Source: Chryseobacterium geocarposphaerae (GTDB lineage Bacteria; Bacteroidota; Bacteroidia; Flavobacteriales; Weeksellaceae). Taken from it: 64,000 bases of DNA. The stretch spans positions 992,001 through 1,056,000 of the forward strand of contig NZ_PGFD01000001.1 of NCBI RefSeq assembly GCF_002797535.1, read 5' to 3'. Under the pieces are notes generated by a model. The model had not been told where the DNA came from. It saw only the letters and a list, made by a program, of their open reading frames with translations, and did not search any database. The position numbers and the translations under genes were made by a program. Positions 48,850 to 62,002 of this stretch are shown one piece after another. Every line of letters begins with the position of its first letter. The stretch's first letter is position 1.

Positions 48850-49173
48850 AATAAACAGGCAACTAAAAGCTGTTAGATCTTCCCTGAAACAACACTTTTG
48901 TATCTATAAAAAGACGCTGTATTCCATTTATGAAATAGAAATTCAATTAGTAAAAAAAAATTAAACTTAAAAACAGCTCAAACTATACTTTCACATTTTT
49001 TAACATTTAGAAAATCAACGAAATAGCAAAAAAAGTGAAATTCACATAAAATATCAATTATATTAACGAAATATTAAATCATAAAAAAAAATAATTATTT
49101 TTTATAAAAAGATATAAACATATCATTATTATTCATATCTTAGTGATGTATTAATCATATAAATTACAATCAC
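48850..49173. other. 324-base AT-rich gap before the bacteriocin-like gene
   Basis: No gene seen. It holds a pure A/T palindrome (AAAAAATAATTATTTTTT around 49083-49103) and, at 49136-49143, TATCTTAG, one base off TAnnTTTG, as the only -7 candidate for the next gene. The sequence is much richer in AT than its surroundings. Confidence 0.5.
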
Positions 49174-49458
49174 ATGAAAAATTTGAAAAAATTAAACAGA
49201 AATGAGTTGAAAACTATTTCAGGAAACGGGCTACTAGACAACATTACTGGTGTTGTTACAGGTACTGTTGGTGCCGTAGGTGGTGCTATTGGTGGTCTAG
49301 GAGGAGTAGTTGGTGGTGTTGTAGGTGGCGTAGTAGGAACAGTTGGCGGTGCTGTTACAGGTACTGTTGGTGTTGTAGGAACTACATTATGCAATGTTCA
49401 GTGCGTTGTTAACGGTATTGTTACGATCAAAGTACTTGCTTGCGGATCTACTTGTTAA
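49174..49458 (+). CDS. Gly/Val-repeat peptide with bacteriocin-type leader
   Basis: 94 aa. The start MKNLKKLNRNELKTISGNG matches the leader of the 'bacteriocin-like' peptides common in Chryseobacterium, with GNG where most have GG. Residues 26-70 are almost wholly Gly, Val, Thr and Ala, with Gly pairs every four residues (VGGVVGGVVGGVVG), a glycine-zipper pattern suited to helix packing in membranes. The last 22 residues hold four cysteines (73, 77, 90, 94), able to form two disulfides or to be modified. No transporter, immunity or maturation gene lies next to it. A perfect terminator follows. Function as an antimicrobial is inferred. Confidence 0.72.
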   Translation: MKNLKKLNRNELKTISGNGLLDNITGVVTGTVGAVGGAIGGLGGVVGGVVGGVVGTVGGAVTGTVGVVGTTLCNVQCVVNGIVTIKVLACGSTC

Positions 49459-49483
49459 GAAAAAATTAAGTTTAGTATGGTAT

Positions 49484-49508
49484 AACCGCTCTTTAAAAGA
49501 GCGGTTTT
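49484..49508 (+). terminator. Terminator of the bacteriocin-like gene
   Basis: AACCGCTCTTT pairs perfectly with AAAGAGCGGTT, followed by a T run. Confidence 0.88.
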
Positions 49509-49570
49509 TTTATTATTAAAATTGGAGATGTCTGTTTTAGGAATAACCAGAATAAATTTTAAAAAAAATA

Positions 49571-49606
49571 AAAAACCTTCTTTAATGATTTTAAAGAAGG
49601 TTTTTG
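49571..49606 (-). terminator. Terminator of the alpha/beta hydrolase gene
   Basis: AAAAACCTTCTTTAA with TTAAAGAAGGTTTTT; strong in either direction. Confidence 0.85.
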
Positions 49607-49629
49607 CTTTCATGGAGATTGCCTTATTG

Positions 49630-50451
49630 TTAGCTTTCTATAAACTCCAACAAATCTTTATTAATAGTTTCGTGCTCTGTAGTCGGCATTCCGTGAGGGA
49701 AACCTGGGTAGGTAATCAGTTTTCCGTTCTTTAATAATTTAATTGATTTTAATGCCGCATTCGCAATAGGAACGATTTGGTCATCTTCACCATGCATAAC
49801 TAAAACAGGAATATCCACGGCTTTAAGATCTTCCGTTAGATCTGTTTCAGAGAAAGCTTTGATTCCGTCGTAATGAGCTACAATTCCTCCCATTAATCCT
49901 TGTCTCCACCAGTTTCTCTGAATTCCGTCTTTTATATTTGCTCCTTCTCTGTTATAACCGTAAAACGGGAAAGTCAAATCATAATAGAATTGATTCCTAT
50001 TATTCATCGTCTGGTCTCGGATGTTATCAAAAACTTCAATCGGAACACCGTCAGGATTCGTTTCACTTTTTACCATTACTGGAGGAATCGCACTGATTAG
50101 CACAGCTTTTTTCGCTCTTCCGTTAGCATATTTGTTCACATAACGGATCACTTCACCCCCCCCTGTAGAGTGACCGATATGAATTACATCTTTCAGACCT
50201 AAAAATTCAACCAGTTCTGCAGCGTCAGAAGCATATTGTTCAATCGTGTGGTTATAAATATTCTGACTGGATCTTCCGTGACCTCTTCTGTCGTGGGTAA
50301 CGACTCTGTAACCTCTCTGAAGGAAGAAAATAACCTGTGCGTCCCAATCGTCTGAAGATAATGGCCATCCGTGATGAAACATCAATACTGGTCCTTGGCC
50401 TTGGTCTTTGTAAAAAATCTCTGTTCCGTCTTTTAATTTTAGTGTGCTCAT
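49630..50451 (-). CDS. Alpha/beta hydrolase (non-haem chloroperoxidase/esterase-like)
   Basis: 273 aa. Nucleophile elbow GHSTGGGEV with Ser95; acid Asp in MHGEDDQIVPI; His in FPHGMPTT; oxyanion region HHGWPLSSDDWD. The set matches cofactor-free haloperoxidase-type esterases, which can also make peracids. It has its own TACATTTG promoter box and does not carry the 27-bp element found before three other genes of this island. Confidence 0.9.
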   Translation of the reverse strand: MSTLKLKDGTEIFYKDQGQGPVLMFHHGWPLSSDDWDAQVIFFLQRGYRVVTHDRRGHGRSSQNIYNHTIEQYASDAAELVEFLGLKDVIHIGHSTGGGEVIRYVNKYANGRAKKAVLISAIPPVMVKSETNPDGVPIEVFDNIRDQTMNNRNQFYYDLTFPFYGYNREGANIKDGIQRNWWRQGLMGGIVAHYDGIKAFSETDLTEDLKAVDIPVLVMHGEDDQIVPIANAALKSIKLLKNGKLITYPGFPHGMPTTEHETINKDLLEFIES

Positions 50452-50503
50452 AATTTACTTTTTTTATTGTTGTGATTAATATTTTGTTGTCTTAATTCTT
50501 TAG

Positions 50504-50511
50504 CAAATGTA
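50504..50511 (-). promoter_or_regulatory. -7 box of the alpha/beta hydrolase gene
   Basis: Minus strand TACATTTG, exact TAnnTTTG, 52 bases before the ATG at 50451. Confidence 0.5.
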
Positions 50512-50608
50512 GGTCGGCTAAATTCAATGTATCTTAACCTAAGTTAAAATCGTTCATTTGATATAAAATTATTTGGGCAGTACAAACTGCTTAAAAGTCC
50601 TTTTGTGG

Positions 50609-51127
50609 TTAATCAACCGCATTCTCACGTATCAGCTGAAACAAATCCATCGCACTGCCGTTGAATTTATTACCGTTAACGAAGAATGAAGGTGTTCCGT
50701 TCACACCGCTCATAATTCCGCTTTCAAAATCCGAATCTACTTTTTCTTCCAGCTCAGCTTTTCGAATATCTGTTTTGAACTGAGAAACATTTAATCCTAT
50801 TTTTTCTGCAAGCTCAAATAAGAATAGTTCATTCAGAGATCCCTGATTTTCGTAGATCGCATCGTGCATTTCCCAGAATTTTCCCTGAAGATTGGCGGCT
50901 TCAGCTGCGATTGCGGCAGGTCTTGCATATTGATGCATTTCCGACAAAGGAAAATTCCTGAAAACAAATTTTACCTGACTTCCGAATTCTTTCATTAATT
51001 CTTTCAAAATAGGATAAGCGGCTCCGCAATACGGACACTGATAATCGCCGTATTCTACAATCACAAGGTCGGCATTGTCGTTACCTTGGGCGTGGTCAGT
51101 TGTGCTGACTGATGGTTTTAGTGACAT
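50609..51127 (-). CDS. DsbA-like thiol oxidoreductase
   Basis: 172 aa without signal peptide. Active site Cys31-Pro-Tyr-Cys34 in GDYQCPYCGAAYPIL; cis-Pro in VNGTPSFFVNGNKF. Follows the peroxiredoxin gene by two bases, so it may reduce or protect that enzyme. Last gene of the bicupin operon. Confidence 0.9.
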   Translation of the reverse strand: MSLKPSVSTTDHAQGNDNADLVIVEYGDYQCPYCGAAYPILKELMKEFGSQVKFVFRNFPLSEMHQYARPAAIAAEAANLQGKFWEMHDAIYENQGSLNELFLFELAEKIGLNVSQFKTDIRKAELEEKVDSDFESGIMSGVNGTPSFFVNGNKFNGSAMDLFQLIRENAVD

Positions 51128-51129
51128 AA

Positions 51130-51591
51130 TTATTTTGTGTTAAGATTTTCTAAAGCTTCTAATATTCCGTCTGCGCCGGGATTGATGGCGGTAGGAGATA
51201 GGTAGCTCCATTCGATAATGCCATCTTTGTTAATGACGAATAATGCGCGTTTGCATTCTCCTTCCTCATCATCGTAAACGCCGTATTTTTTTGCTGTTTC
51301 TCCTTTCGCTTCAAAGTCAGCCAACAATGGAAAATGTAAGTTTCTGGATTGTGAAAAAGCAAGATGACACCATTTGCTGTCCACAGAGATTCCAAAGAGT
51401 TCTGCGTCATATTTATGGAAGAACTTCAAAGTTTCGTTGTATAAAGCCATCTGGTCGCTGCAAACCGGACTCCAGTCTGCGGGATAAAAAGCGAGGATGA
51501 CATTTCTTCCTTTAAATTCAGATAAAGTGACTTTCTGGTCTGGTGTTGCAAACAATGTAAAATCGGGAGCAACAGTGCCTTTTTGTAACAT
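51130..51591 (-). CDS. Peroxiredoxin (AhpC/TSA family)
   Basis: 153 aa. Reduces peroxides through Cys44 in FYPADWSPVCSDQ; the normal TxxC is SPVC, a known variant. A second Cys75 (SKWCHLAF) may resolve the sulfenate. Lies between a DUF1275 membrane protein gene and a DsbA-like gene, five and two bases away. Confidence 0.92.
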   Translation of the reverse strand: MLQKGTVAPDFTLFATPDQKVTLSEFKGRNVILAFYPADWSPVCSDQMALYNETLKFFHKYDAELFGISVDSKWCHLAFSQSRNLHFPLLADFEAKGETAKKYGVYDDEEGECKRALFVINKDGIIEWSYLSPTAINPGADGILEALENLNTK

Positions 51592-51596
51592 AATAT

Positions 51597-52289
51597 TTAG
51601 TTTTTGGGTGTTATTGAATTGAAAATTAATCCTCTACAAGTTAGCAATAAAACTGCAGGTAAAAGCAAAATCCAGTTTTTCAATATACTTAGTAAGAAGG
51701 GAGCCGTCACAGCGCCTGACAAAAAGCCCATCCACAAAAGCAAGAGATAGATTGCATTTTCCTTAGCCTCGTTCTTCTCATTTTCATCATTACTCATCGT
51801 GAATATTGCCATATTTTTAGCAAGGCTGTTCAATGTTCCGGTTACAAAATCTGTATTCACTTTCAGGGTTCCGACAGATGTTACAATCGTATTCATCATT
51901 CCCATTGCAAAACCGATGATGGCAATCGAAGGAATCACAGGAATTTGACAGTAATAATTAATAAAAGTATAAAGAATCAAAATTCCCGAAACAATATAAA
52001 AAACGATGCTTTTAACCTTGCATTTTTTCCATAATGATAAACAGGCTCCGGCATAAATTCCAATTAAAAAACTTCCAATTACCGTGACTGATGTAATGAT
52101 GACTCCGAATTTCTCACTGGAAAAAGCCGCTCCCAATTGCGTGGTATTTCCACTCATAAAGGAAACATAGGTCTTCCATTTGATCAATCCCGTTGCGTCG
52201 GTATATCCTGCGATGAATGCTAAAAAGATGGCCAATTTCTCCTGTACTTTGATTTCTTCGGAAGACAGAAGAGATTTTTCCGCAATCAA
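51597..52289 (-). CDS. DUF1275 (YoaK-like) membrane protein
   Basis: 230 aa, about six helices. Opening FLAFIAGYTDATGLIKWKTYVSFMSGNTTQLG is the DUF1275 hallmark; the second half has MGMMNTIVTSVGTLKVNTDFVTGTL. Unknown function; possibly a small transporter. Second gene of the bicupin operon. Confidence 0.88.
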   Translation of the reverse strand: MIAEKSLLSSEEIKVQEKLAIFLAFIAGYTDATGLIKWKTYVSFMSGNTTQLGAAFSSEKFGVIITSVTVIGSFLIGIYAGACLSLWKKCKVKSIVFYIVSGILILYTFINYYCQIPVIPSIAIIGFAMGMMNTIVTSVGTLKVNTDFVTGTLNSLAKNMAIFTMSNDENEKNEAKENAIYLLLLWMGFLSGAVTAPFLLSILKNWILLLPAVLLLTCRGLIFNSITPKN

Positions 52290-52294
52290 AATCG

Positions 52295-53341
52295 TTATTT
52301 TCTAGGTTGAATAAATATTTTTTCCGAAGGGAATTTCTCAATTTCGCCTTCCTTCAAACCAAAGTTCGTTACGACAACATCTTTCGGATTTCCGGCCAGC
52401 CATTCGCTTAGATCAATGGATTCATATGTTCCGCTGTTGAATCCAATCAATACTTTGCAGACCGTATCGCCTGTATTTTTGATGTAATGTCCGGCTCCCA
52501 TCGGAACATAACCGACATCACCAGCGTTAAACTGCTCCGTAACAATCGTACCTTCCGCTAAGAAAACCGACATCTCGGCCTGTCCGGAAATAAAGTACTG
52601 CCATTCATCAGCATTCGGATGCCAGTGCATTTCTCTTAAAGCACCGGGTTGAAGCTCCAGAACAGAACCAGCCATTGTTTTGCTGATGGGAAACTCTTTA
52701 CTCGTTACCAATCTCTGTAAACCTCCTCCGGGAATAATTCTTGGCTGCTGAGAATGCAGTGGATAACGGTGAAGATTGGTGAGTTGTATATCAGATTCTT
52801 CAGGTCTTGCTGTGGCCACAAATGACATTTCGTCCGGAACAATTCCTGCTGCGAAATAAACTTCTTTTTGTGGTAACGCTGCCACTTCTTCAAGGGTTAA
52901 TCCTAAATTCTGAGCGGCAATTTCCGGCGGTACGCTTGAAACAAAATCTGTAACGCTGAACGTATGGTCTTCGGAAAAATTACCGTTATCAAAGATCAGA
53001 ATGAAATGACATTCTTCCGTTCCTGTCGCCTGGATCGAGTGACCGTAACCTTTTGGGAAATACCATACATCTCCCGGTTCAAAATTATCGATATAACTTT
53101 TTCCGTCAGGATGAATGATGGTGGTACGCACTGTCCCCGAAATCACATACGCCCATTCTGCTGCGTTGGCGTGCCAGTGCAATTCTCTCATACTTCCGGG
53201 TTGCAGTCTCATAGAAACTCCGGCAATACCGATAGAAGCGGGGAAATCTTTTACAGAAGCACCTCTTGTAGTTCCACCGTCATTAGTACGGGGATTTTGT
53301 TTTTCCAACTCATATTTGAAGCTTAAAGTTGAAGTATTCAT
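52295..53341 (-). CDS. Bicupin (oxalate-decarboxylase-like) protein
   Basis: 348 aa, two cupin domains. First metal site: ELHWHANAAEWAYVISG and GYGHSIQ; second: EMHWHPNADEWQYFISG and GAGHYIK, each giving HxH-x4-E plus a later His, as in Mn-dependent oxalate decarboxylases. No signal peptide. Similarity to OxdC is clear in layout, but the lid Glu that decides decarboxylase activity was not identified, so the substrate is open. First gene of a four-gene operon (bicupin, DUF1275, peroxiredoxin, DsbA-like) driven from the 27-bp-element promoter at 53389-53454. Confidence 0.88.
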   Translation of the reverse strand: MNTSTLSFKYELEKQNPRTNDGGTTRGASVKDFPASIGIAGVSMRLQPGSMRELHWHANAAEWAYVISGTVRTTIIHPDGKSYIDNFEPGDVWYFPKGYGHSIQATGTEECHFILIFDNGNFSEDHTFSVTDFVSSVPPEIAAQNLGLTLEEVAALPQKEVYFAAGIVPDEMSFVATARPEESDIQLTNLHRYPLHSQQPRIIPGGGLQRLVTSKEFPISKTMAGSVLELQPGALREMHWHPNADEWQYFISGQAEMSVFLAEGTIVTEQFNAGDVGYVPMGAGHYIKNTGDTVCKVLIGFNSGTYESIDLSEWLAGNPKDVVVTNFGLKEGEIEKFPSEKIFIQPRK

Positions 53342-53388
53342 AATATTATTACTTTTTAGTGATTATCTCTTGTTCTTAATTTCTATAG

Positions 53389-53454
53389 TAAAGCTACTTC
53401 CAAATCTGGCTTTTTTCAGTTTCTATTCGGTGAACAGGCAAAATCAGTCGTTGA
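53389..53454 (-). promoter_or_regulatory. Promoter with 27-bp element, bicupin operon (site 1)
   Basis: The 27-bp element is at 53428-53454 (plus-strand ends CGGTGAACAGG and GTCGTTGA). A -7-like box TAGCTTTA is at 53389-53396 on the minus strand. The gap is exactly 31 bases, as at sites 2 and 3. The element is 25/27 identical to site 3. Confidence 0.75.
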
Positions 53455-53497
53455 GTTTTATGATGAGACAGATGGTGAATCGTTGCATAAGAAATTG

Positions 53498-53788
53498 AAA
53501 GTTGTCGGGTTACAAACAGGATTGTTTTAAACTAATGTAAAATGCATTTGGTTTAAAACAGATTGCAGGAGATAAAACACAAAGTTATTTGGTTACAAAA
53601 AGGGTTGTTTTAAACTAATGTAAAATGCATTTTGTTCCAAACAAGTTTGCGGGAAACAAAATGCAAAGTTGTCTGGTTACAAACAGGATTGTTTTAAACT
53701 AATGTAAAATGCATTTTATTCCAAACAAGTTTGCGGGAAACAAAATGCAAAGTTGTCTGGTTGCAAAACAGTTGTTTTTAAACTAAAA
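53498..53788. repeat. 84-bp tandem repeat, about 3.5 copies
   Basis: Units at 53498-53580 (83 bases), 53581-53664, 53665-53748 and a partial one from 53749. Each begins AAAGTTGTCTGGTTACAAA (with variants) and holds GTTTTAAAC, TGTAAAATGCAT and an inverted pair TGCATTTTGTT / AACAAAATGCA. Units 2 and 3 are nearly identical; unit 1 has drifted. It fills the space between the SRPBCC-like gene and the bicupin promoter. No open frame runs through it. Confidence 0.9.
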
Positions 53789-53818
53789 AAAATCACTGGA
53801 TGAACCCCAATGATTTTA
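53787..53818 (-). terminator. Terminator of the SRPBCC-like gene
   Basis: AAAATCACTGG pairs with CCAATGATTTT (one mismatch) just downstream of the 53839 stop on the minus strand. Confidence 0.65.
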
Positions 53819-53838
53819 ATTAATATATCATGTTGATT

Positions 53839-54396
53839 TTAAAAAGGCTGATTGTATTTGCCTGTCAATGCTTTGTTTTCGATACTTTTTGCAAAGTTAG
53901 GTGTTTCTTCGTGGTTATGAGCGTCGGAAGCAGCTTGTCTTGATGCGGCTGCATCAGCAAGATTTACATTGTGTTCTTTTAGATATTCAAACATTTCCGG
54001 CGTTGCCGTTGCGTGAATTTCGTTGGTGTACAAAGTCGTGCTGTCATCAATTTTTGTCGCTTTCAGTTCCCATAAAACCTGAACTTTCGTTCTTCCGTTT
54101 TTGGTAATGGAATCGGAGATTGATAACATTCTGCAGTAATCCGGGCGATAAGCTGTGGCTACATAATGCTGAACCATCAAAGCATCTCCGATTGTTTCAA
54201 CATTTAGCGAAACCGGTTCGCCGTCGAAAGTGGTAGAAATAGCTGCTCCTATGTGCTGGGTTGAGCATCTTTGATATTCGGCATCGGGTAAATTTAATAA
54301 CCAATCTGCGATGTTAACTTTTTCGAATGGTGTATTGATAATAGCGGTTACGCTTGAGTGAGACAATGCGTTTTCCGGTGTTTGTAGAATTTCCAT
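53839..54396 (-). CDS. Unrecognised protein, possibly SRPBCC (START-like) fold
   Basis: 185 aa, no signal peptide. The pattern of an N-terminal SVTAIINTPFEKVNIADWLLNLPDAEYQRCS, then alternating strands (SLNVETIGDALMVQHYV, KVQVLWELKATKIDD, STTLYTNEIHATATPEM) suggests an SRPBCC-like lipid or ligand binding fold, but I do not recognise the family. The C-terminus is polar and Ala/His/Asn-rich. It stands as a single gene with the 27-bp-element promoter (site 2), so it belongs with the bicupin operon and Dps in regulation. Confidence 0.65.
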   Translation of the reverse strand: MEILQTPENALSHSSVTAIINTPFEKVNIADWLLNLPDAEYQRCSTQHIGAAISTTFDGEPVSLNVETIGDALMVQHYVATAYRPDYCRMLSISDSITKNGRTKVQVLWELKATKIDDSTTLYTNEIHATATPEMFEYLKEHNVNLADAAASRQAASDAHNHEETPNFAKSIENKALTGKYNQPF

Positions 54397-54434
54397 AATG
54401 TTTTGGTTTTAATTGTTTGTATTAATTGATGATG

Positions 54435-54500
54435 TAAAGCTACAGGCAACTCAATGGAAAATCAACTGGAGTTCGATGAACAGGCGAAAACTGTCGTTGG
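54435..54500 (-). promoter_or_regulatory. Promoter with 27-bp element, SRPBCC-like gene (site 2)
   Basis: Element at 54474-54500 (plus-strand ends CGATGAACAGG and GTCGTTGG). TAGCTTTA at 54435-54442 on the minus strand. Gap 31 bases. Confidence 0.75.
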
Positions 54501-54556
54501 ATGCGTACTTATATTTATTAACGAATAGAAAGAAATAGTAACTTTAATATATATCA

Positions 54557-54627
54557 CTTTTGTCATTCCGTAGGAATCTAAATTATTATTTAAATACTTT
54601 GTTGAGATTCCTACGGAATGACAAAAG
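54557..54627. repeat. Interspersed inverted repeat, GTCATT family, copy C
   Basis: Perfect 23-base arms (54557-54579 and 54605-54627; outer ends CTTTTGTCATTCCG, inner ends AGGAATCT) around a 25-base A/T loop. The best-preserved copy. Confidence 0.85.
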
Positions 54628-54650
54628 CGAGAAGCCTTTATTATAAACAA

Positions 54651-54679
54651 AAAAATCACTGCATTTTACAGTGATTTTT
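54651..54679 (-). terminator. Terminator of the kinase/OYE/monooxygenase operon
   Basis: AAAAATCACTG pairs perfectly with CAGTGATTTTT around CATTTTA. Confidence 0.85.
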
Positions 54680-54691
54680 ATATGATTAATA

Positions 54692-55240
54692 CTATTTAAA
54701 AAGCCATTTTCTGATCAGCTTTGTATAATTAGGCATTACAACAAAAACCATCAGGAAGACAATACATCCTGAAATCAGAAGTCCGTCTGAATAATGATTA
54801 GCAGGAATTTTTAACAACCTTAAAAAGGGGAGAAGTACCAATGGAATCAGCAATGACAAAGGATAAATGGCTGACCAGGTTACTAGAAACTGCTTCCAAC
54901 GTACAGGAACCTTTGTTTCATTTTCGGTTTCAAAAAGAAAATCTAGCCCGGATTTTATTTTATAATAGTCATTTTTTCTGAACAGTGGTGCAGCTTTGTC
55001 AATGAGTCTTTTACGGGCATCAGAATCCATCCAGCTTCGGAGATTTTCAATCGTATCAAATCTGATAATAACAGTATAGACAAAGGTAAGACCTTTAATT
55101 GGACGTACAATCTGATGGTCTATGAAACCTTTTGAATCTCGGGTTAAAGGAACAATTTCATCCAGCCATTGTTCGTATTCCTGCTGTTTTCCATCCAGGA
55201 TATGATGTGAAATTACTACGGATGCACCTTGATTTTCCAT
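54692..55240 (-). CDS. Antibiotic-biosynthesis-monooxygenase-domain membrane protein
   Basis: 182 aa. The first about 100 residues form an ABM-type dimeric alpha/beta barrel (SVVISHHILDGKQQEYEQWLDEIVPLTRDSKGFIDHQIVRP, TIENLRSWMDSDARKRLI). Two membrane helices follow (LVTWSAIYPLSLLIPLVLLPF; GLLISGCIVFLMVFVVM). This ABM-plus-two-helices layout is a known family without a firm function; cofactor-free quinol oxidation is typical for the soluble domain. It is downstream of an old-yellow-enzyme gene by 21 bases. Confidence 0.85.
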   Translation of the reverse strand: MENQGASVVISHHILDGKQQEYEQWLDEIVPLTRDSKGFIDHQIVRPIKGLTFVYTVIIRFDTIENLRSWMDSDARKRLIDKAAPLFRKNDYYKIKSGLDFLFETENETKVPVRWKQFLVTWSAIYPLSLLIPLVLLPFLRLLKIPANHYSDGLLISGCIVFLMVFVVMPNYTKLIRKWLFK

Positions 55241-55261
55241 ATCATCAGTTTTTTTACAAAT

Positions 55262-56320
55262 TTAAAAGGCTCTTTTGTATTGCCAAGGGATTTCTGTATC
55301 AAGCTCCAGTTCGATTGCAGAGTGAATTGCAAAATAAGGATCTCTCAAATGCTCTCTTGCAATGATAACCAGGTCTGCTTTGTTGTCGCTGATAATTTCG
55401 TTAGCTTGTTTTGCAGACGTGATCATTCCGACAGCGCCTGTTAAAAGCCCTGTTTTTTCTTTAATAGCAGTAGCAAAAGGAATCTGATAACCCGGAAAAA
55501 CTCTGTCTTTGCTTACATTGGTAAAGCCACCGCCTGATGCGGTAATAAAATCTACACCTTCCTTTTTAAGGATTTCTGCAAGCCGGATGCTGTTATCAAG
55601 TGTCCAGCTTTCCTCGGTTTCTACATAATCTACAGCAGAGATTCTTACAAGTAAAGGCATTGTTTCAGGAATCACTTTTCTCACTTCCTGAACAGTTTCC
55701 ACTAAAAAGCGGATTCGGTTTTCAAAACTTCCACCGTATTCATCTGTTCTTTTATTGATTAATGCTGAATAAAACTGATGAAAAAGATAACCGTGTCCTG
55801 CGTGAAGCTCAATCGTATCAAAACCAGCTTCCACCGCTCTTACAGCAGCTTGGGCAAACTTATTTTTAAGCTCCTGAATTTCTGCAACGGATAACTCTTG
55901 AGGAATCACTCCGTTAATTTCTGTGGGTGAGGAACACTTTACAATCCATCCGCCTTCTTCTACAGTAAGAGGTTTCATTCTTTCGTTGGGATGCTTTAGG
56001 CTTCCTTTTCCTCCGGAATGCCAAAGCTGAATCCCTATTTTAGCATTCTGCTCGTGGACAAAACCCACAATGTTTTTCCAGGCATTTTGCTGCTCGTCGT
56101 TCCAGATTCCCACATCGCTTAAAGTGGCTAAACCCTCGGGAGAAACGGCGGTGCATTCGGTAAGGATAAGACCGGCGCCACCGACAGCACGGCTTCCTAA
56201 ATGGACAAGATGCCAGTTACCGGGAATTCCGTTTTTTGCGCTGTACTGCTGCATGGGAGATAATACAATCCTGTTTTTAAGTTCAAGACTGCGTAGTTGT
56301 ATAGGACTAAATAAATTCAT
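55262..56320 (-). CDS. NADH:flavin oxidoreductase, old yellow enzyme family (YqjM-like)
   Basis: 352 aa. FMN-dependent ene-reductase. Motifs: RIVLSPMQQYSAKNGIPGNWHLVHLGSRAVGGAGLILTE (thermophilic-like OYE start), the substrate-binding pair in ELHAGHGYLFHQFYS (His...), YGGSFENRIRF and IIAREHLRDPYFA. Where YqjM has the redox-tuning Cys in SPMCMYS, this protein has Gln. It may reduce reactive enones or nitro compounds under stress. Starts three bases after the kinase stop. Confidence 0.92.
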   Translation of the reverse strand: MNLFSPIQLRSLELKNRIVLSPMQQYSAKNGIPGNWHLVHLGSRAVGGAGLILTECTAVSPEGLATLSDVGIWNDEQQNAWKNIVGFVHEQNAKIGIQLWHSGGKGSLKHPNERMKPLTVEEGGWIVKCSSPTEINGVIPQELSVAEIQELKNKFAQAAVRAVEAGFDTIELHAGHGYLFHQFYSALINKRTDEYGGSFENRIRFLVETVQEVRKVIPETMPLLVRISAVDYVETEESWTLDNSIRLAEILKKEGVDFITASGGGFTNVSKDRVFPGYQIPFATAIKEKTGLLTGAVGMITSAKQANEIISDNKADLVIIAREHLRDPYFAIHSAIELELDTEIPWQYKRAF

Positions 56321-56323
56321 TGT

Positions 56324-58546
56324 TTAAGATTTAATATTTTGTAATTGATGTAAAAATTTTTCAGCTTCTGAAAGTGATGATGTGATAATACTCTGTACCA
56401 TTTTCAAAGCTTCTGCTGATTGCTGGTTTTGTGCGGAAGTCATTTCCAAAAACTCCAGTTTTTCTTCTAATAAAGGTAATAATCCCATGATGGCAACACT
56501 GGATTTCAGATCATGCGCTCTCAGTTTTACAATCGTAAAATCTGCGTTTTCATAAGCCGATTCCATTTCCTGAATATGATACGGAATTTTGTCTAAAAAC
56601 TGCTGTGTGACAGTTCTTTCAAAATCTTTGTCACCATTGCTGATAGACTTCATGTAAGTAAGATCAATATATTGATAAACAGTAACTTCTTCTTTAATTT
56701 CTGCTTCCTTATTTTTATCTTTTTTTAATCCGAAACCTGAAATTAATTTAAATAATTCATCTTCATTGACCGGTTTGGAAATATATTCGTTCATGCCTCG
56801 GCTCAGGCATTTTTCTCTTTCTCCAGCCAATGCGTGTGCGGTCATTGCAATAATTGGAAGGTTCAGGTTCAATTCTTCACGGATTTTTTGTGTTGCAGTA
56901 TAGCCGTCCATTTGTGGCATCTGAATGTCCATTAAAACCAGATCGCAATCATTATTTTTAAGATATTCTACTGCTTCCAGACCGTTGTTTGCAGTGTCAA
57001 AATCGATGTTCCATTGCGATAGTAGATGTTTCATCAGACTTTGATTGATCGCATTATCATCCACGACCAAAACTTTCAAAGGTGTATTGGATCTATCTTT
57101 AAAATATTGTGTATCCACTGCAGGAATTACGTTAATCTGTTCTCCCGCAATGGCATAAGGAATGTAAAAATGAAAAGTCGTGCCCTTTCCCTGTTCGCTC
57201 ATTACCTCAATGTCCCCATTTTGCAATTGAATTAAACTTTTCACAATGGATAAGCCAAGTCCGGTTCCGCCATAATTTCTTGTTGTAGAATCTTCGCCCT
57301 GGTTGAATCTTTCAAAGACTTCGCTAAGTTTTTCTTTATCGATTCCAATTCCTGTATCTGAGACTTTAAAACCTACAACAACTTCATTTTCAGTTTGATG
57401 CTTATTGTAGATCTCAATAGTAATGCGCCCCTGATGTGTAAATTTAATAGCATTTCCAATGAGGTTAACCAAAATCTGAGTGAGTCTCGTTGCATCACCA
57501 TTTAAAGTGTCGGGAATAGATGGATCTATTTTGCTGGAGATCGTTAATCCTTTTTCTTTGGCACGCTCCACAAAAAATGTTTCTACCGAATTCACCAACC
57601 CATTGATACTGAATATTCCTTTGGTGATACGCATCATTCCGGCTTCGATTTTTGATAAATCCAGGATATCATTGATAATGGCCATCAGATTTTCTCCTGA
57701 GCGTTGAATGGATGATACAAATTCTTTTGAAGTTTCATCCAATGGTCTTTTCTGCAAAAGGTTCGTAAAGCCCAAGATTCCGCTCAGAGGTGTTCTGATT
57801 TCGTGGCTCATATTGGCTAAAAAATTTTCTTTGGTCTGTGCGGCAACCGAAGCTTTTTTCTCCGCAACATCCAATTCCTGGATCAGCAATCTTTGACGTT
57901 TAAACTGGCGAAGAATATGATAGCCAACGATAGATCCGCTTAAGATCAAAAGAATCAGCAAGGAAATATCATACAATCTGGCTTTCTGTCCCATTTCCTC
58001 GTTTTTTTTGCTGAGATCTACCATATGAATTTTTCGACTTTCATAGATCTTTGCGGTAATAGAAGTGATTTCGTTCGATATTTTTCTGGCTCTTGGATTA
58101 GCAATGGAAGTCTGATCGTCCATATTTCCGAGGGTATGATAACGAAGCAATAATTTGTCCTTCGTTGTTTTCTTGTCCATCGCGAGAATACTCAATCGGT
58201 GAATTAATCTTTCTTCTTCCGCATCGGCATTGTCTTTGGAAAGGGAATCTAAAAAGTTTTCTATCTGATTGATCTTTTGGTCGATTCCTTCAAGGTGAGT
58301 GGTGTCATTGGTTGCAATGGAGGCTCTGATTCTGCTTTCAACGCCTAAAATATCACGGTCAATTTCACGCAAATGGTTGCTTGAACGTAATTCTTCGAGA
58401 AGTTTGTTATTGTTACGGATAAGTTCCTTCGTATTTTGGGCTGAATTGATCTGAACTGCAATCAATAGGAGAGACCCCGCAATAAATGTGAGGATGATAA
58501 AATAGCTGAAGCGCTTGTTGTTCATTACTGAGGATATCTTTTTCAT
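56324..58546 (-). CDS. Hybrid sensor histidine kinase with receiver and Hpt domains
   Basis: 740 aa. Membrane helices at about 13-32 and 191-211 enclose a 155-residue helical sensor. HisKA with His248 (ANMSHEIRTPLSG), HATPase (NAIKFTHQGR, DTGIGID, GGTGLGLSI), a receiver domain with Asp540 (LVLMDIQMPQMDGY), and a C-terminal Hpt with His678 (KLRAHDLKSSVAIMG). It is built for a His-Asp-His-Asp relay, and the LytTR response regulator upstream (58787-59482) is the likely final acceptor. It heads an operon with the old-yellow-enzyme and ABM-domain genes. Confidence 0.93.
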   Translation of the reverse strand: MKKISSVMNNKRFSYFIILTFIAGSLLLIAVQINSAQNTKELIRNNNKLLEELRSSNHLREIDRDILGVESRIRASIATNDTTHLEGIDQKINQIENFLDSLSKDNADAEEERLIHRLSILAMDKKTTKDKLLLRYHTLGNMDDQTSIANPRARKISNEITSITAKIYESRKIHMVDLSKKNEEMGQKARLYDISLLILLILSGSIVGYHILRQFKRQRLLIQELDVAEKKASVAAQTKENFLANMSHEIRTPLSGILGFTNLLQKRPLDETSKEFVSSIQRSGENLMAIINDILDLSKIEAGMMRITKGIFSINGLVNSVETFFVERAKEKGLTISSKIDPSIPDTLNGDATRLTQILVNLIGNAIKFTHQGRITIEIYNKHQTENEVVVGFKVSDTGIGIDKEKLSEVFERFNQGEDSTTRNYGGTGLGLSIVKSLIQLQNGDIEVMSEQGKGTTFHFYIPYAIAGEQINVIPAVDTQYFKDRSNTPLKVLVVDDNAINQSLMKHLLSQWNIDFDTANNGLEAVEYLKNNDCDLVLMDIQMPQMDGYTATQKIREELNLNLPIIAMTAHALAGEREKCLSRGMNEYISKPVNEDELFKLISGFGLKKDKNKEAEIKEEVTVYQYIDLTYMKSISNGDKDFERTVTQQFLDKIPYHIQEMESAYENADFTIVKLRAHDLKSSVAIMGLLPLLEEKLEFLEMTSAQNQQSAEALKMVQSIITSSLSEAEKFLHQLQNIKS

Positions 58547-58591
58547 AAGTCTGTTATATTGACTTTAAAATTATTGTTGACCACCCCGTCA

Positions 58592-58630
58592 AAAATTCTT
58601 CGAATTTTCGCCACCCCTCCAAAAGAGGGG
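58592..58630. repeat. Composite intergenic repeat with two hairpins
   Basis: AAAATTC-TTC-GAATTTT (58592-58608) and CCCCTC-CAAAA-GAGGGG (58614-58630) lie side by side; together with the following GC-richer stretch up to copy D they form a composite repeat block between the regulator and kinase genes. The wording resembles intergenic repeats I associate with Chryseobacterium genomes. Confidence 0.6.
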
Positions 58631-58687
58631 AATTTTTGCATTGCAATTGGAACGGCGAATTGTTTCAGCCCGGCTTGAGCGGAGCTC

Positions 58688-58751
58688 TTTTTGTCATTGC
58701 GATTGCTGAATAGTTCAACAGATTGCTTCACTTCGTTCGCAATGACAAAAA
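58688..58751. repeat. Interspersed inverted repeat, GTCATT family, copy D
   Basis: Perfect 15-base arms TTTTTGTCATTGCGA (58688-58702) and TCGCAATGACAAAAA (58737-58751). The arm differs from copy C after GTCATT, so it is a sub-family. Confidence 0.8.
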
Positions 58752-58786
58752 AGCGGGAGCGGAAGGCGGATTAAGCTGCCCAAATC

Positions 58787-59482
58787 CTAAAAAACATTCA
58801 TTCTCGTATTGAGTGCTTTTCTGTATGCATCTGCAACAGGAATGAATTTTCCGTTAATCATAATTCCGCCGTCCTGAAGCGTATCAATTTTACCGACAGA
58901 AACGATGTAAGATCGATGAACTCTGATGAAATAATCTTTCGGTAGACGTTCTTCCGCCGTTTTCATCTTGCCGTGGATAGCAAACATTTTTTCTCTTGTA
59001 TAGAACTTAACGTAGTCGCCCATTGCTTCTGCATACAAAATATCATCCAGTTTCAGGCGTCTTGTAATATTGGAATCCCGTACGAAAAGAAACTCGTCTT
59101 TTGTGATTTCTACATTTTCCTTTCGGCTTTCAAGAATAGCCTGTGCTTTGCTAACTGCCTGTAAAAATCTTGCCGGCATCACAGGTTTTAACAGGTAATC
59201 TGCGATATTAAGTTCAAAAGCTTCGAGTGCATATTCTTTATTAGATGTAGTGAAAATGATGATCGTTTCTTTTCCTGAGAGATTTTTGGTGAGTTCTATC
59301 CCTGACATTTCAGGCATTTCGATGTCTAAGAAAATTAGATCAACAGGATGGGTCTGCAGATAATTGTAAGCTTCAATCGCGTTGGAAAATTCATTGACAA
59401 TTGTAAGACTCGGAATTTGTTTTGCCAAATGTGATAATGTTGTTCTTGCAATGTCGTTGTCATCGACGATTAAAGCTTTCAT
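58787..59482 (-). CDS. LytTR family response regulator
   Basis: 231 aa. Receiver domain with Asp53 (LIFLDIEMPEMSG) and conserved Lys in DYLLKPV; C-terminal LytTR DNA-binding domain (LYAEAMGDYVKFYTREKMFAIHGKMKTAEERLPKDYFIRVHRSYIVS). LytTR domains bind repeated GTT-containing sites and usually activate. It lies directly upstream of the hybrid kinase gene (240 bases of repeat DNA between) and downstream of Dps. Confidence 0.93.
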   Translation of the reverse strand: MKALIVDDNDIARTTLSHLAKQIPSLTIVNEFSNAIEAYNYLQTHPVDLIFLDIEMPEMSGIELTKNLSGKETIIIFTTSNKEYALEAFELNIADYLLKPVMPARFLQAVSKAQAILESRKENVEITKDEFLFVRDSNITRRLKLDDILYAEAMGDYVKFYTREKMFAIHGKMKTAEERLPKDYFIRVHRSYIVSVGKIDTLQDGGIMINGKFIPVADAYRKALNTRMNVF

Positions 59483-59507
59483 AGGGATAGTTATTTATGA
59501 TTTTACA

Positions 59508-59539
59508 CAAATATAATTATTCCTTTTTTCTTTTCCCAA
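59508..59539 (-). promoter_or_regulatory. Promoter of the LytTR regulator gene
   Basis: Minus strand TTG (59537-59539), 21 bases, TATATTTG (59508-59515). Exact -7 box; -33 part is weak. It lacks the 27-bp element. Confidence 0.55.
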
Positions 59540-60013
59540 TTATCTGAAATATGAACGGATCATCCAGGCCATTTCTTCGTGGGTTTCCATCAATCCCGTA
59601 ATGAAATCGCTGGTTCCGTAATCTTTGAATTCTTCGGCAAAAGGGGTGATGTTTCCTCGTAGGAATTCAATGATGCTTTCGTGGTCGCTCAACAGGTCTT
59701 TCATATAGCCTAAACCGTCGTTGGTTCTGTCGCTGTATTCTGTAAGATGGGTTAATTCAAGATAGATTTTCATTGTTGCAGGGGCATAATGTCCTATTTT
59801 ACGCATACGTTCTGCAACGCTGTCAATCAGTTCATCCAATTGTTTGTATTGCTCTTCGAAAAAAATGTGATTGGCGTGGAAATTATCTCCGGTGACATTC
59901 CAGTGTGCGTTTCTTGTTTTGATATAAAGTACAGTTTCATCAGCTAAAAGTTTTGCCAATTGATCTGCAACAGCTTGTGTGTTTTTTTCTGTAATTCCGA
60001 TTTTTGTTTTCAT
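59540..60013 (-). CDS. dps: Dps family DNA-protection ferritin
   Basis: 157 aa. Iron storage and DNA protection under peroxide or starvation. Ferroxidase motif RNAHWNVTGDNFHANHIFFEEQYKQLDELIDSVAERMRKIG carries the His, Asp and Glu ligands at the dimer interface. The end AWMIRSYF is typical. Normal length; its promoter carries the 27-bp element (site 3). Confidence 0.95.
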   Translation of the reverse strand: MKTKIGITEKNTQAVADQLAKLLADETVLYIKTRNAHWNVTGDNFHANHIFFEEQYKQLDELIDSVAERMRKIGHYAPATMKIYLELTHLTEYSDRTNDGLGYMKDLLSDHESIIEFLRGNITPFAEEFKDYGTSDFITGLMETHEEMAWMIRSYFR

Positions 60014-60048
60014 AATAGTGAGATTTAAGTTGTTCTTTTTTGATGATA

Positions 60049-60114
60049 TAAAGTTCGGATGGAATGTTGCTGAATTGAGAGATTTTTCGGTGAACGGGCA
60101 AAATGAGTCGTTGA
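60049..60114 (-). promoter_or_regulatory. Promoter with 27-bp element, Dps gene (site 3)
   Basis: Element at 60088-60114 (plus-strand ends CGGTGAACGGG and GTCGTTGA). A weaker -7 box GAACTTTA at 60049-60056 on the minus strand. Gap 31 bases, as at sites 1 and 2. Confidence 0.72.
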
Positions 60115-60509
60115 ATGGGATATAAAGATGTTGAATTTATTATGTAGGCAATTTTAAATAGCAGTGCTATTATAGATTATGGGTCATAAATACAATTTAA
60201 CATAATATAAATTATAGGATTTTTATAATCTGAATATGGGAGAGTTTACTTTGCTATTTTCCGCACTTTTCTATTTTCGAGAAGCCCTCTTTTCTATTTG
60301 GTACAAACTTTATTTCCTCCAATCATTTTCTTCAATATTTTAAAAACTGCTGAGATTCCGCTGTACGATTTAAGCTCGGGAAAAACTCGGTATATTAAAA
60401 ACTGGATTACTTATAGTTTAGTTTTGAATAATATTATAGCATTGTGTAAACTCACAGCAATCTGTCAAAATTTAAAATTTAATAAAAAAAATCATCAATA
60501 AAATTTGCG
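60115..60509. other. AT-rich gap between Dps promoter and ArsR gene
   Basis: No convincing gene. A 67-codon open frame (60298-60501) has no recognisable domain, no promoter box, and biased AT-driven residues. A short palindrome TAGCAGTGCTA lies near 60162. Otherwise nothing seen. Confidence 0.5.
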
Positions 60510-60551
60510 TAGCCAAATAACTTCATTTAAATTTATAGTCAAATAACTACA
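60510..60551 (+). promoter_or_regulatory. Direct-repeat operator of the ArsR gene
   Basis: TAGCCAAATAACTTCA (60510-60525) and TAGTCAAATAACTACA (60536-60551) match at 14 of 16 positions and are 26 bases apart. The second also reads as an inverted TAGT-N6-ACTA and ends two bases before the ATG. Likely autoregulatory sites. Confidence 0.6.
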
Positions 60552-60553
60552 CA

Positions 60554-60877
60554 ATGAATTTAAGACGAGATGTATTTCAGGCCATTGCAGATCCTACCAG
60601 AAGATCCATATTGATGTTGGTTGCCACTCAATCTATGACAGCTGGTGCAATTGCTTCGAATTTTGATACTGCAAGACCTACTGTTTCAAAACATCTTCAA
60701 ATCCTTACAGAATGTGAATTATTAAGATCTGAACAAAACGGCCGTGAGATTATCTACCATTTAAGCCCTGCAAAAATGAAAGAAATTGCAGACTTTATCG
60801 AGCCCTTCCGCAAAATGTGGGACGACAGATTTAACAAGCTTGAAGACCTGATGAAAAGTTACCAATCAAAAAAATAG
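60554..60877 (+). CDS. ArsR family repressor
   Basis: 107 aa winged helix: [65 protein letters not shown]. No metal-binding cysteines of the classic ArsR box are present; this subgroup is typically paired with an SRPBCC protein, as here (next gene four bases on). Confidence 0.92.
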
Positions 60878-60881
60878 AAAT

Positions 60882-61340
60882 ATGGAACTGAGAACCAAAA
60901 TACACGCCGAAGATGGAAAACAGGAAATCTTCATCACCAGAGAATTTGACCTGCCCGTTGAATTATTGTTCAAAGCTTATACAGAAGCTGAACTTTTTGA
61001 ACAATGGATGGGAACAAAGGTGACAAAATTTGAAAATAAACAACACGGAAGCTACCGTTTTGAGACCTCAAATCCTCAAGGCGACGTAGTTTTCAGCGCC
61101 AATGGAACCATTCATGAAATTATTCAGAATGAGAAAATTATAAGAACTTTTCAAATGGAAAATACGCCTTTTCCAGTTCAGCTTGAATTTTTAGAATTTG
61201 AAAAAATTACGGATGATATCAGCAAAATAACCATTCAGACGATTTATAAATCAGTGGATTTCAGAGATCAGATGTTGAAATTACCTTTCGCACAAGGCAT
61301 CAATATGGCCCATAACCGTCTGCAAGAATTATTTAAATAA
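60882..61340 (+). CDS. SRPBCC (AHSA1-like) domain protein
   Basis: 152 aa. Pattern ITREFDLPVELLFKAYTEAELFEQWMG, then GSYRFETSNPQGDVVFSANGTIHEI and the C-terminal helix QGINMAHNRLQELF is the activator-of-Hsp90-homologue / START-like family. Usually a ligand-binding partner of the upstream ArsR protein. Ligand unknown. Confidence 0.9.
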   Translation: MELRTKIHAEDGKQEIFITREFDLPVELLFKAYTEAELFEQWMGTKVTKFENKQHGSYRFETSNPQGDVVFSANGTIHEIIQNEKIIRTFQMENTPFPVQLEFLEFEKITDDISKITIQTIYKSVDFRDQMLKLPFAQGINMAHNRLQELFK

Positions 61341-61347
61341 CAAGATG

Positions 61348-61402
61348 CGGGATACGAGATTCGAGGTTGGAACCATTAAATAATATAGCAACTTGTATCC
61401 CG
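61348..61402. repeat. Inverted repeat between SRPBCC and YdeI genes
   Basis: CGGGATACGAG (61348-61358) and CTTGTATCCCG (61392-61402), one G-T pair. It lies within a transcribed spacer and looks like a degenerate intergenic repeat. Confidence 0.5.
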
Positions 61403-61423
61403 GAACACCATAAACCAAAATAT

Positions 61424-62002
61424 ATGAACCCAAAAGTTGATTTCTTCTTTGATAAGGCCACACAATGGCAAAAAGAATTCGAAAAATTAAGAGCAATTGC
61501 ATTAGAAACCGAGCTTGTAGAAGATTTGAAATGGGGATGTCCATGTTATACTTATGAGGGAAAAAATATATTCTTAATTCACGGTTTTAAAGAATATTGT
61601 GCACTACTCTTTTTCAAAGGTGCTTTAATGAAAGATCCTGAAAACATCTTAATCCAACAAACTGAAAACGTGCAGGCTGCAAGACAAATCCGCTTTACTA
61701 ATTTACAGCAAATTATTGATTTAAAAGAAGTTATTAAATCATATCTATTTGAAGCTGTTGAAATTGAAGAATCAGGTGCAAAAGTCGAGATGAAGAAGAC
61801 CAAGGAGTTTGAAATGCCTGAAGAATTTCAACAGAAACTGAATGAAAACTCAGCATTAAAAGAAGCTTTTGAAGCTTTAACACCAGGAAGGCAACGTGCT
61901 TACCTACTCTATTTTTCTTCCGCCAAACAATCCAAAACCAGAGCAGCCAGAATTGAAAAATACATTCCGGAAATTCTTAATGGAAATGGGTTGAATGATT
62001 AA
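61424..62002 (+). CDS. YdeI/OmdA family protein with DUF1801 domain
   Basis: 192 aa from ATG at 61424; the frame continues upstream to a TTG at 61367, but that part lies in the inverted repeat and MNPKVDFFFDK is the family start. An N-terminal DUF1801 domain (WGCPCYTYEGKNIFLIHGFKEYCALLFFKGAL) is followed by the OmdA tail LTPGRQRAYLLYFSSAKQSKTRAARIEK. In B. subtilis YdeI protects against antimicrobial peptides; the mechanism here is unknown. Same operon as ArsR and SRPBCC. Confidence 0.88.
   Translation: MNPKVDFFFDKATQWQKEFEKLRAIALETELVEDLKWGCPCYTYEGKNIFLIHGFKEYCALLFFKGALMKDPENILIQQTENVQAARQIRFTNLQQIIDLKEVIKSYLFEAVEIEESGAKVEMKKTKEFEMPEEFQQKLNENSALKEAFEALTPGRQRAYLLYFSSAKQSKTRAARIEKYIPEILNGNGLND

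Follow-up and report, generated by a model that had tools for sequence, protein, structure and literature searches.

A 21-bp-phased direct repeat upstream of dps, bicupin and SRPBCC-like promoters in Chryseobacterium, a probable operator of a LytTR response regulator

Operators described for LytTR regulators consist of 9-bp direct repeats, mostly 12 bp apart and often 10 bp upstream of the -35 box (PMC6193735). The sigma-A promoters of flavobacteria carry a -7 box, TAnnTTTG, which occupies -12 to -5 in Flavobacterium psychrophilum (PMC9723704). Here we describe an element that joins features of both in a 64,000-nucleotide stretch of Chryseobacterium geocarposphaerae DNA (contig NZ_PGFD01000001.1, positions 992,001 to 1,056,000), hereafter the window, to which coordinates refer unless a locus is named. 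The element, YCAnCGA-N14-TCAnCGA, stands at one fixed distance from the -7 box of three minus-strand promoters, and it is very probably the activator operator of the product of a nearby LytTR response regulator gene (58787-59482), acting with a hybrid histidine kinase to drive dps, a bicupin operon and an SRPBCC-like gene. Promoters of the Bacteroidota differ from those of E. coli, and to our knowledge few operators have been worked out in this phylum.

The likeness to HdrR/BrsR and other LytTR systems (PMC6193735) lies in two direct repeats with a 21-bp period placed just upstream of a promoter, in positive control, which we infer for the present locus, and in a regulator that often belongs to the set it controls. 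There are also differences. The loose half-site consensus published for LytTR operators, ACCACTTAC, agrees with YCAnCGA at about 3 of 9 positions when compared by eye (PMC6193735), so that the sequence fits only loosely. Operators of the HdrR/BrsR type lack the extra conserved TTTTGCC block found here and the third phased repeats present in some promoters, and the site described here serves a sigma-A promoter of the Bacteroidota in which no -33 TTTG is conserved. Their regulator is paired with an inhibitor membrane protein, whereas a response regulator and a hybrid kinase are found here. Compared with the flavobacterial promoters of PMC9723704, the -7 box keeps the same frame but ends in TTTA and has an operator upstream. 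A limited literature search by title or abstract start, outside subscription papers and preprints, found no description of the regulon or the element, and the part of PMC10197871 that was available, on a LytTR mutation, makes no mention of the regulon. The initial annotation knew of no described element of this form; this was not borne out, as a 21-bp-phased direct repeat is of the LytTR-operator kind.

The initial annotation had reported a 27-mer ahead of three minus-strand transcription units, and re-reading of the sequence confirmed its position at each of them: site 1 (53428-53454) ahead of the bicupin operon, site 2 (54474-54500) ahead of the SRPBCC-like gene and site 3 (60088-60114) ahead of dps. 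The reported identity of 25 of 27 bases between sites 1 and 3 and the gap of exactly 31 bases between each 27-mer and its -7 box were confirmed as well. The base after the 27-mer is A at all three sites, which makes the element a 28-mer (53427-53454, 54473-54500 and 60087-60114) followed by a 30-base gap. Sites 1 and 3 read TCAACGA-N14-TCACCGA and site 2 reads CCAACGA-N14-TCATCGA; their boxes are TAGCTTTA at 53389-53396, TAGCTTTA at 54435-54442 and GAACTTTA at 60049-60056, all on the minus strand. The composite pattern YCAnCGA-N14-TCAnCGA-N30-KAnnTTTA, allowed up to two mismatches, matched three times in the window, each time with none, and in 100 dinucleotide shuffles of the window it averaged 0.02 matches with a maximum of 1.

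A search of the 4.11-Mb genome for the 28-mer, allowing up to three mismatches, gave four matches, the three sites and one further copy, and the reversed pattern had none. The fourth match (contig C3, C3:65115; locus L006, 1900-2143) precedes what appears by eye to be the decayed beginning of a dps gene, has a spacer to the box one base longer, and now has an alpha/beta hydrolase gene downstream and an AraC-type regulator gene (PF12833) as a neighbour. We read this copy as a remnant, even though the hydrolase gene comes after it. A genome scan had been proposed as a check on the element, and its matches proved not to be scattered: they fall at the promoters of one recurring set of genes, with the distance preserved. 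Chance origin is ruled out by the pattern counts in the window, the genome and the genus together with the three exact matches. Recent duplication of one promoter was also rejected, as the three sites share no similarity evident by eye outside the element and the box. An RNA element was rejected because the site is expected to fall outside the transcript, upstream of its start, and no Rfam family reached its gathering threshold within 49000-61500.

Distribution within the genus ties the element to the regulator. Among 148 genus genomes, drawn evenly from a larger group, the 28-mer pattern (up to three mismatches) occurs in 49, mostly as two to four copies close together, and the reversed pattern occurs in none. 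Regulator orthologs at least 81% identical are likewise present in 49 of the 148, the next among the matches listed being at most 42% identical, and the two sets of 49 genomes are the same. A matrix scan of the window, 52 stretches and L006 returned 147 matches of 12 bits or more, whereas over the same stretches a single match of at least 8 bits (12.8) came from the reversed matrix. Setting aside locus L087, which has three mismatches and no box in place, and matches of 16.6 and 18.5 bits left 144 genus sites. These precede dps (47), bicupin (45), SRPBCC-like (40), hydrolase (4) and peroxiredoxin (3) genes, with 5 unassigned. The proposal of a local regulon is supported, as is the reality of a conserved, promoter-linked element. 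As a separate observation, one element at the exact spacing (L086, 3113, minus strand) lies about 500 kb from the cluster of its genome, ahead of a gene for a 244-aa protein that resembles, by eye, the N-terminal part of leucyl aminopeptidases.

The architecture of the element is that of a direct repeat with a 21-bp period, reading about YCAMCGACTCWTTTTGCCYRTTCAYCGA on the sense strand as judged from column counts. Column similarity at a lag of 21 was 11.2, compared with 8.5 at the 95% point of column shuffles; an inverted repeat was tried and rejected, its best score being 1.6. The 14 bases between the 7-mers are equivalent to 12 between 9-mers, inside the LytTR-operator rule of 11-13 bp for this period (PMC6193735). 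In the alignment of the 144 genus sites conservation stops one base upstream of the 28-mer, and all columns farther out hold at most 0.41 bits. A third unit, placed exactly 21 bp upstream and matching at 6-7 of 7 positions, was found at 62 of 276 distinct sites against a background of 2%; the 276 are related to one another, with some arrays entering the count repeatedly. Three in-phase units occur in SRPBCC promoters of Flavobacterium and Pedobacter and at sites beside regulators in Chitinophaga. In the Chitinophaga loci L216, L218 and L222, and less clearly in L217, the TTGCC seen in the genus is replaced in the operator block by TTCCC or ATCCC, and this altered block stands alongside a divergent LytTR domain; a joint change in the specificity of regulator and operator is possible.

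Promoter geometry is nearly invariant. TTTA lies at one fixed offset from the element in 142 of the 144 genus sites and one base further in the other two, and a box ending in TTTG was found in none; the boxes are mostly TAGCTTTAC, GAACTTTAC or GACCTTTAC. The fixed spacing recurs in 149 of 154 sites of named srpbcc loci, a set that shares some species with the genus set. The reported lack of a conserved -33 TTTG held in that TTTG was seen near the -33 place in 1 of the 144 sites, a hydrolase promoter, but 20 bases ahead of its -7 box site 2 does carry TTG, though not TTTG. In the genus, TTG at this distance is found in 24 of 40 SRPBCC promoters, 0 of 47 dps promoters and 0 of 45 bicupin promoters, and three dps promoters have TTG at a neighbouring offset. 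The F. psychrophilum start-site frame (PMC9723704), applied here, would place the element at about -70 to -43. The activator-like geometry that had been proposed is supported: an upstream site at one fixed phase, an off-consensus -7 box and no conserved -33 TTTG fit a promoter in need of help.

The regulator encoded in the cluster is the proposed binder. It combines a REC domain (PF00072) with a LytTR domain (PF04397, E 9.6e-20, residues 142-228), and the receiver phospho-acceptor residues D7, D8, D53 and K99 are invariant in 21 sequences. Its confident structure model (predicted local distance difference test score, pLDDT, 87.6; predicted template modelling score, pTM, 0.61) has as its best full-length match among solved folds the LytTR regulator ComE of Streptococcus pneumoniae (PDB 4cbv), a competence regulator that likewise joins REC and LytTR. 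The likeness covers the protein fold, at 20% identity and a TM-score of about 0.45 over the full length, and the domain arrangement is not comparable. The proposed partner is a hybrid histidine kinase (56324-58546, minus strand) with the phosphorelay domains HisKA, HATPase and REC and an Hpt match below the cut-off. Counting open frames of at least 80 aa, 14 gene families recur in at least 8 of the 49 clusters, among them the kinase (49), dps (49) and the regulator (48); in the remaining locus, L082, the regulator was not seen as an open frame in the stretch, yet the ortholog search finds it encoded. Pfam analysis of representatives of these 14 showed no DNA-binding family apart from the regulator, the SRPBCC-like representative having no match.

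Beyond the genus, a regulator at least 82% identical was found in 7 of 395 genomes sampled across the phylum, and all 7 carry the element; the reversed control had 2 matches in this sample. A scan for SRPBCC genes, using the best 80 of 151 named loci and scored per stretch, found regulator and element together in 50, neither in 25, the element only in 5 and the regulator only in none. Where the element stands without the regulator in the stretch, the genome was found to encode one elsewhere: 85% identical on another contig (L093), 94% identical and at least 110 kb away or on another contig (L113), 90% identical and 12 kb away on the same contig (L103), or 63-65% identical (L124 and L131). Conversely, 30 genomes lack the regulator in the srpbcc stretch; 10 of these have no homolog at E<=1e-55, and none of the 10 has the element at its SRPBCC gene (best score -12.8 or lower). 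In 16 genomes a regulator 49-71% identical lies away from srpbcc, and 6 of them, all at 61-65%, retain a weaker srpbcc site of 15-25 bits.

The sites also follow more distant regulators. Stretches around regulators of 50-82% identity contained matches of at least 11 bits in 15 of 20 cases (25 matches, against 1 with the reversed matrix), and among Bacteroidota with a regulator 50-71% identical, element-like sites accompany the regulator or kinase at 14 of 19 loci, mostly with the spacing unchanged. Inspection of 19 distant-regulator sites found 13 with a TAnnTTTR box at exactly 30 bases, ahead of dps, bicupin, hydrolase and other genes; in 3 more the box lies 30 bases after a third unit, and 2 of these 3 sit directly between regulator and kinase.

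We favor a model in which the hybrid kinase senses a signal and passes phosphate to D53 of the regulator. Two regulator monomers would occupy the two 7-9-bp repeats, whose offset of 21 bp, or two helical turns, keeps them on the same side of the helix. From this position, about -70 to -43, the regulator would bring sigma-A RNA polymerase to promoters too weak on their own, in which the -7 box has a TTTA ending in place of TTTG and no -33 TTTG is conserved. The predicted targets switched on in this way are dps, the bicupin-yoaK-peroxiredoxin-dsbA operon and the SRPBCC-like gene. The sequences show directly the repeats, their fixed spacing, their conservation and their co-occurrence with the regulator; binding, activation, phosphorelay, stress signal and read-through are predictions built on them. 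The promoter of the regulator had been described as lacking the element, and it has no element of its own; since the gene begins 57 bases after dps, however, it may be driven from site 3. Read-through from dps would probably raise the regulator level and create positive feedback, and a candidate separate promoter, TTG-N21-TATATTTG, can also be read by eye in the dps-regulator gap (59508-59539, minus strand). A wider version of this model is one we regard as less likely than not: that a portable LytTR/hybrid-kinase protection regulon is shared horizontally across the phylum, with a 21-bp-phased repeat array 30 bases from a TTTA box replacing the -33 element, sigma-A promoters thereby coming to answer to a two-component signal, and two or three repeats tuning promoter strength.

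Several observations weigh against assigning the element to this regulator. Within the genus, element, regulator and targets share one cluster, and every genome with the srpbcc gene also has the regulator (41 of 41). Co-occurrence at this level, taken alone, would look the same if some linked cause rather than the regulator were responsible. Naming the binder consequently leans mostly on the distant loci and on the two SRPBCC genes remote from their regulator (L093 and L113). Of the distant regulator loci, 5 of the 20 have no site near the regulator, 10 of the 16 genomes with a regulator of 49-71% away from srpbcc lack a site there (at most 1.7 bits), and two phylum genomes with a regulator of 50-52% have no match at up to three mismatches. 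In one genome an 82% regulator is accompanied by no more than a weak srpbcc site (6.3 bits), and a score of 9.8 was obtained for one adjacent pair. In the other direction, 7 of the 388 phylum genomes lacking a close regulator show one match each, 4 of these being variants of one sequence. As for the repeat itself, a rare column shuffle exceeds the lag-21 score (12.1 as the largest of 500), and the TTTTGCC block between the repeats is conserved as strongly as they are, which a plain 9-12-9 LytTR site would not need.

This block leaves room for another reader of the element, although it is unlikely that an unlinked regulator, for example of the AraC type, binds it while the LytTR gene is simply another member of the cluster. 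AraC-type half-sites comprise two boxes with a 21-bp tandem period, and TTTTGCC lends the element an A-box/B-box/A-box pattern of that kind; the PF12833 gene beside the decayed copy in L006 points the same way. Gene content argues against such a reader, as neither AraC nor any other DNA-binding family joins the LytTR regulator among the 14 cluster families. The element-like sites moreover follow distant homologs of the LytTR regulator and kinase into other families, and the genomes of L093 and L113, whose srpbcc genes retain the element far from the regulator, do hold that regulator.

Even with the LytTR regulator as the binder, the sign of regulation is not fixed by sequence alone, and the same protein could repress, or both repress and activate. 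We consider this somewhat less probable still, given a site wholly upstream of the promoter core at a fixed phase and a -7 box that departs from consensus with no conserved -33 TTTG. The rigidity of the unit formed by element and -7 box across species would also suit an extended promoter for an alternative sigma factor, motifs of which are known in flavobacteria (PMC9723704), or a DNA-structure signal. That explanation strikes us as very improbable: at about -70 to -43 the element would be out of reach of sigma, phased repeats in twos or threes typically mark binding by protein dimers or oligomers, and the conserved families of the clusters include no sigma factor. Activation by the LytTR regulator accounts best for the site. 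What is predicted together is an operator, an exact promoter geometry, a probable regulator and kinase, and their targets, conserved over several families. If the model is true, Dps, a peroxiredoxin and a bicupin would come under defined two-component control in flavobacteria, and the promoters would form a ready set in which to study activator function with the sigma-A of the phylum Bacteroidota.

All genes of the proposed regulon lie on the minus strand. The bicupin gene, of the oxalate decarboxylase family (52295-53341, TIGR03404 above cut-off), is the first of the site 1 operon; genes for a DUF1275 membrane protein (PF06912), which we take to be yoaK-like, an AhpC/TSA peroxiredoxin and a DsbA-like thioredoxin (50609-52289) follow with gaps of 2-5 bases and would form its remainder. 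The SRPBCC-like gene (53839-54396, 185 aa) has no Pfam or NCBIfam match, and some of its relatives are annotated by their sources as SRPBCC family or polyketide cyclase. The dps gene (59540-60013), present in all 49 clusters as is the kinase gene, encodes a ferritin-like DNA-protection protein that matches PF00210 and falls below the cut-off of the NCBIfam Dps model. It is this gene content, namely the Dps, peroxiredoxin and DsbA-like products, that suggests a stress role. Downstream of the kinase lie genes for an ABM-domain protein (PF03992) and an old-yellow-enzyme oxidoreductase (PF00724) at 54692-56320, found in 45 and 27 of the 49 clusters, respectively. An alpha/beta hydrolase gene (49630-50451) had been said to lack the element, and in the window it does, yet the orthologs of some relatives carry one (the 4 of 144 genus sites noted above).

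Three further features of the window deserve mention. An 84-bp unit is repeated in tandem 3.5 times between the SRPBCC-like gene and site 1 (53498-53786). Intergenic inverted repeats at 54554-54630 and 58688-58751 have related TTTTGTCATTSCG arms and resemble members of a dispersed family of palindromic repeats. On the plus strand, 49174-49458 encodes a 94-aa glycine-rich peptide that holds a 33-bp tandem repeat and whose leader (MKNLKKLNRNELKTISG) resembles those of bacteriocin precursors.

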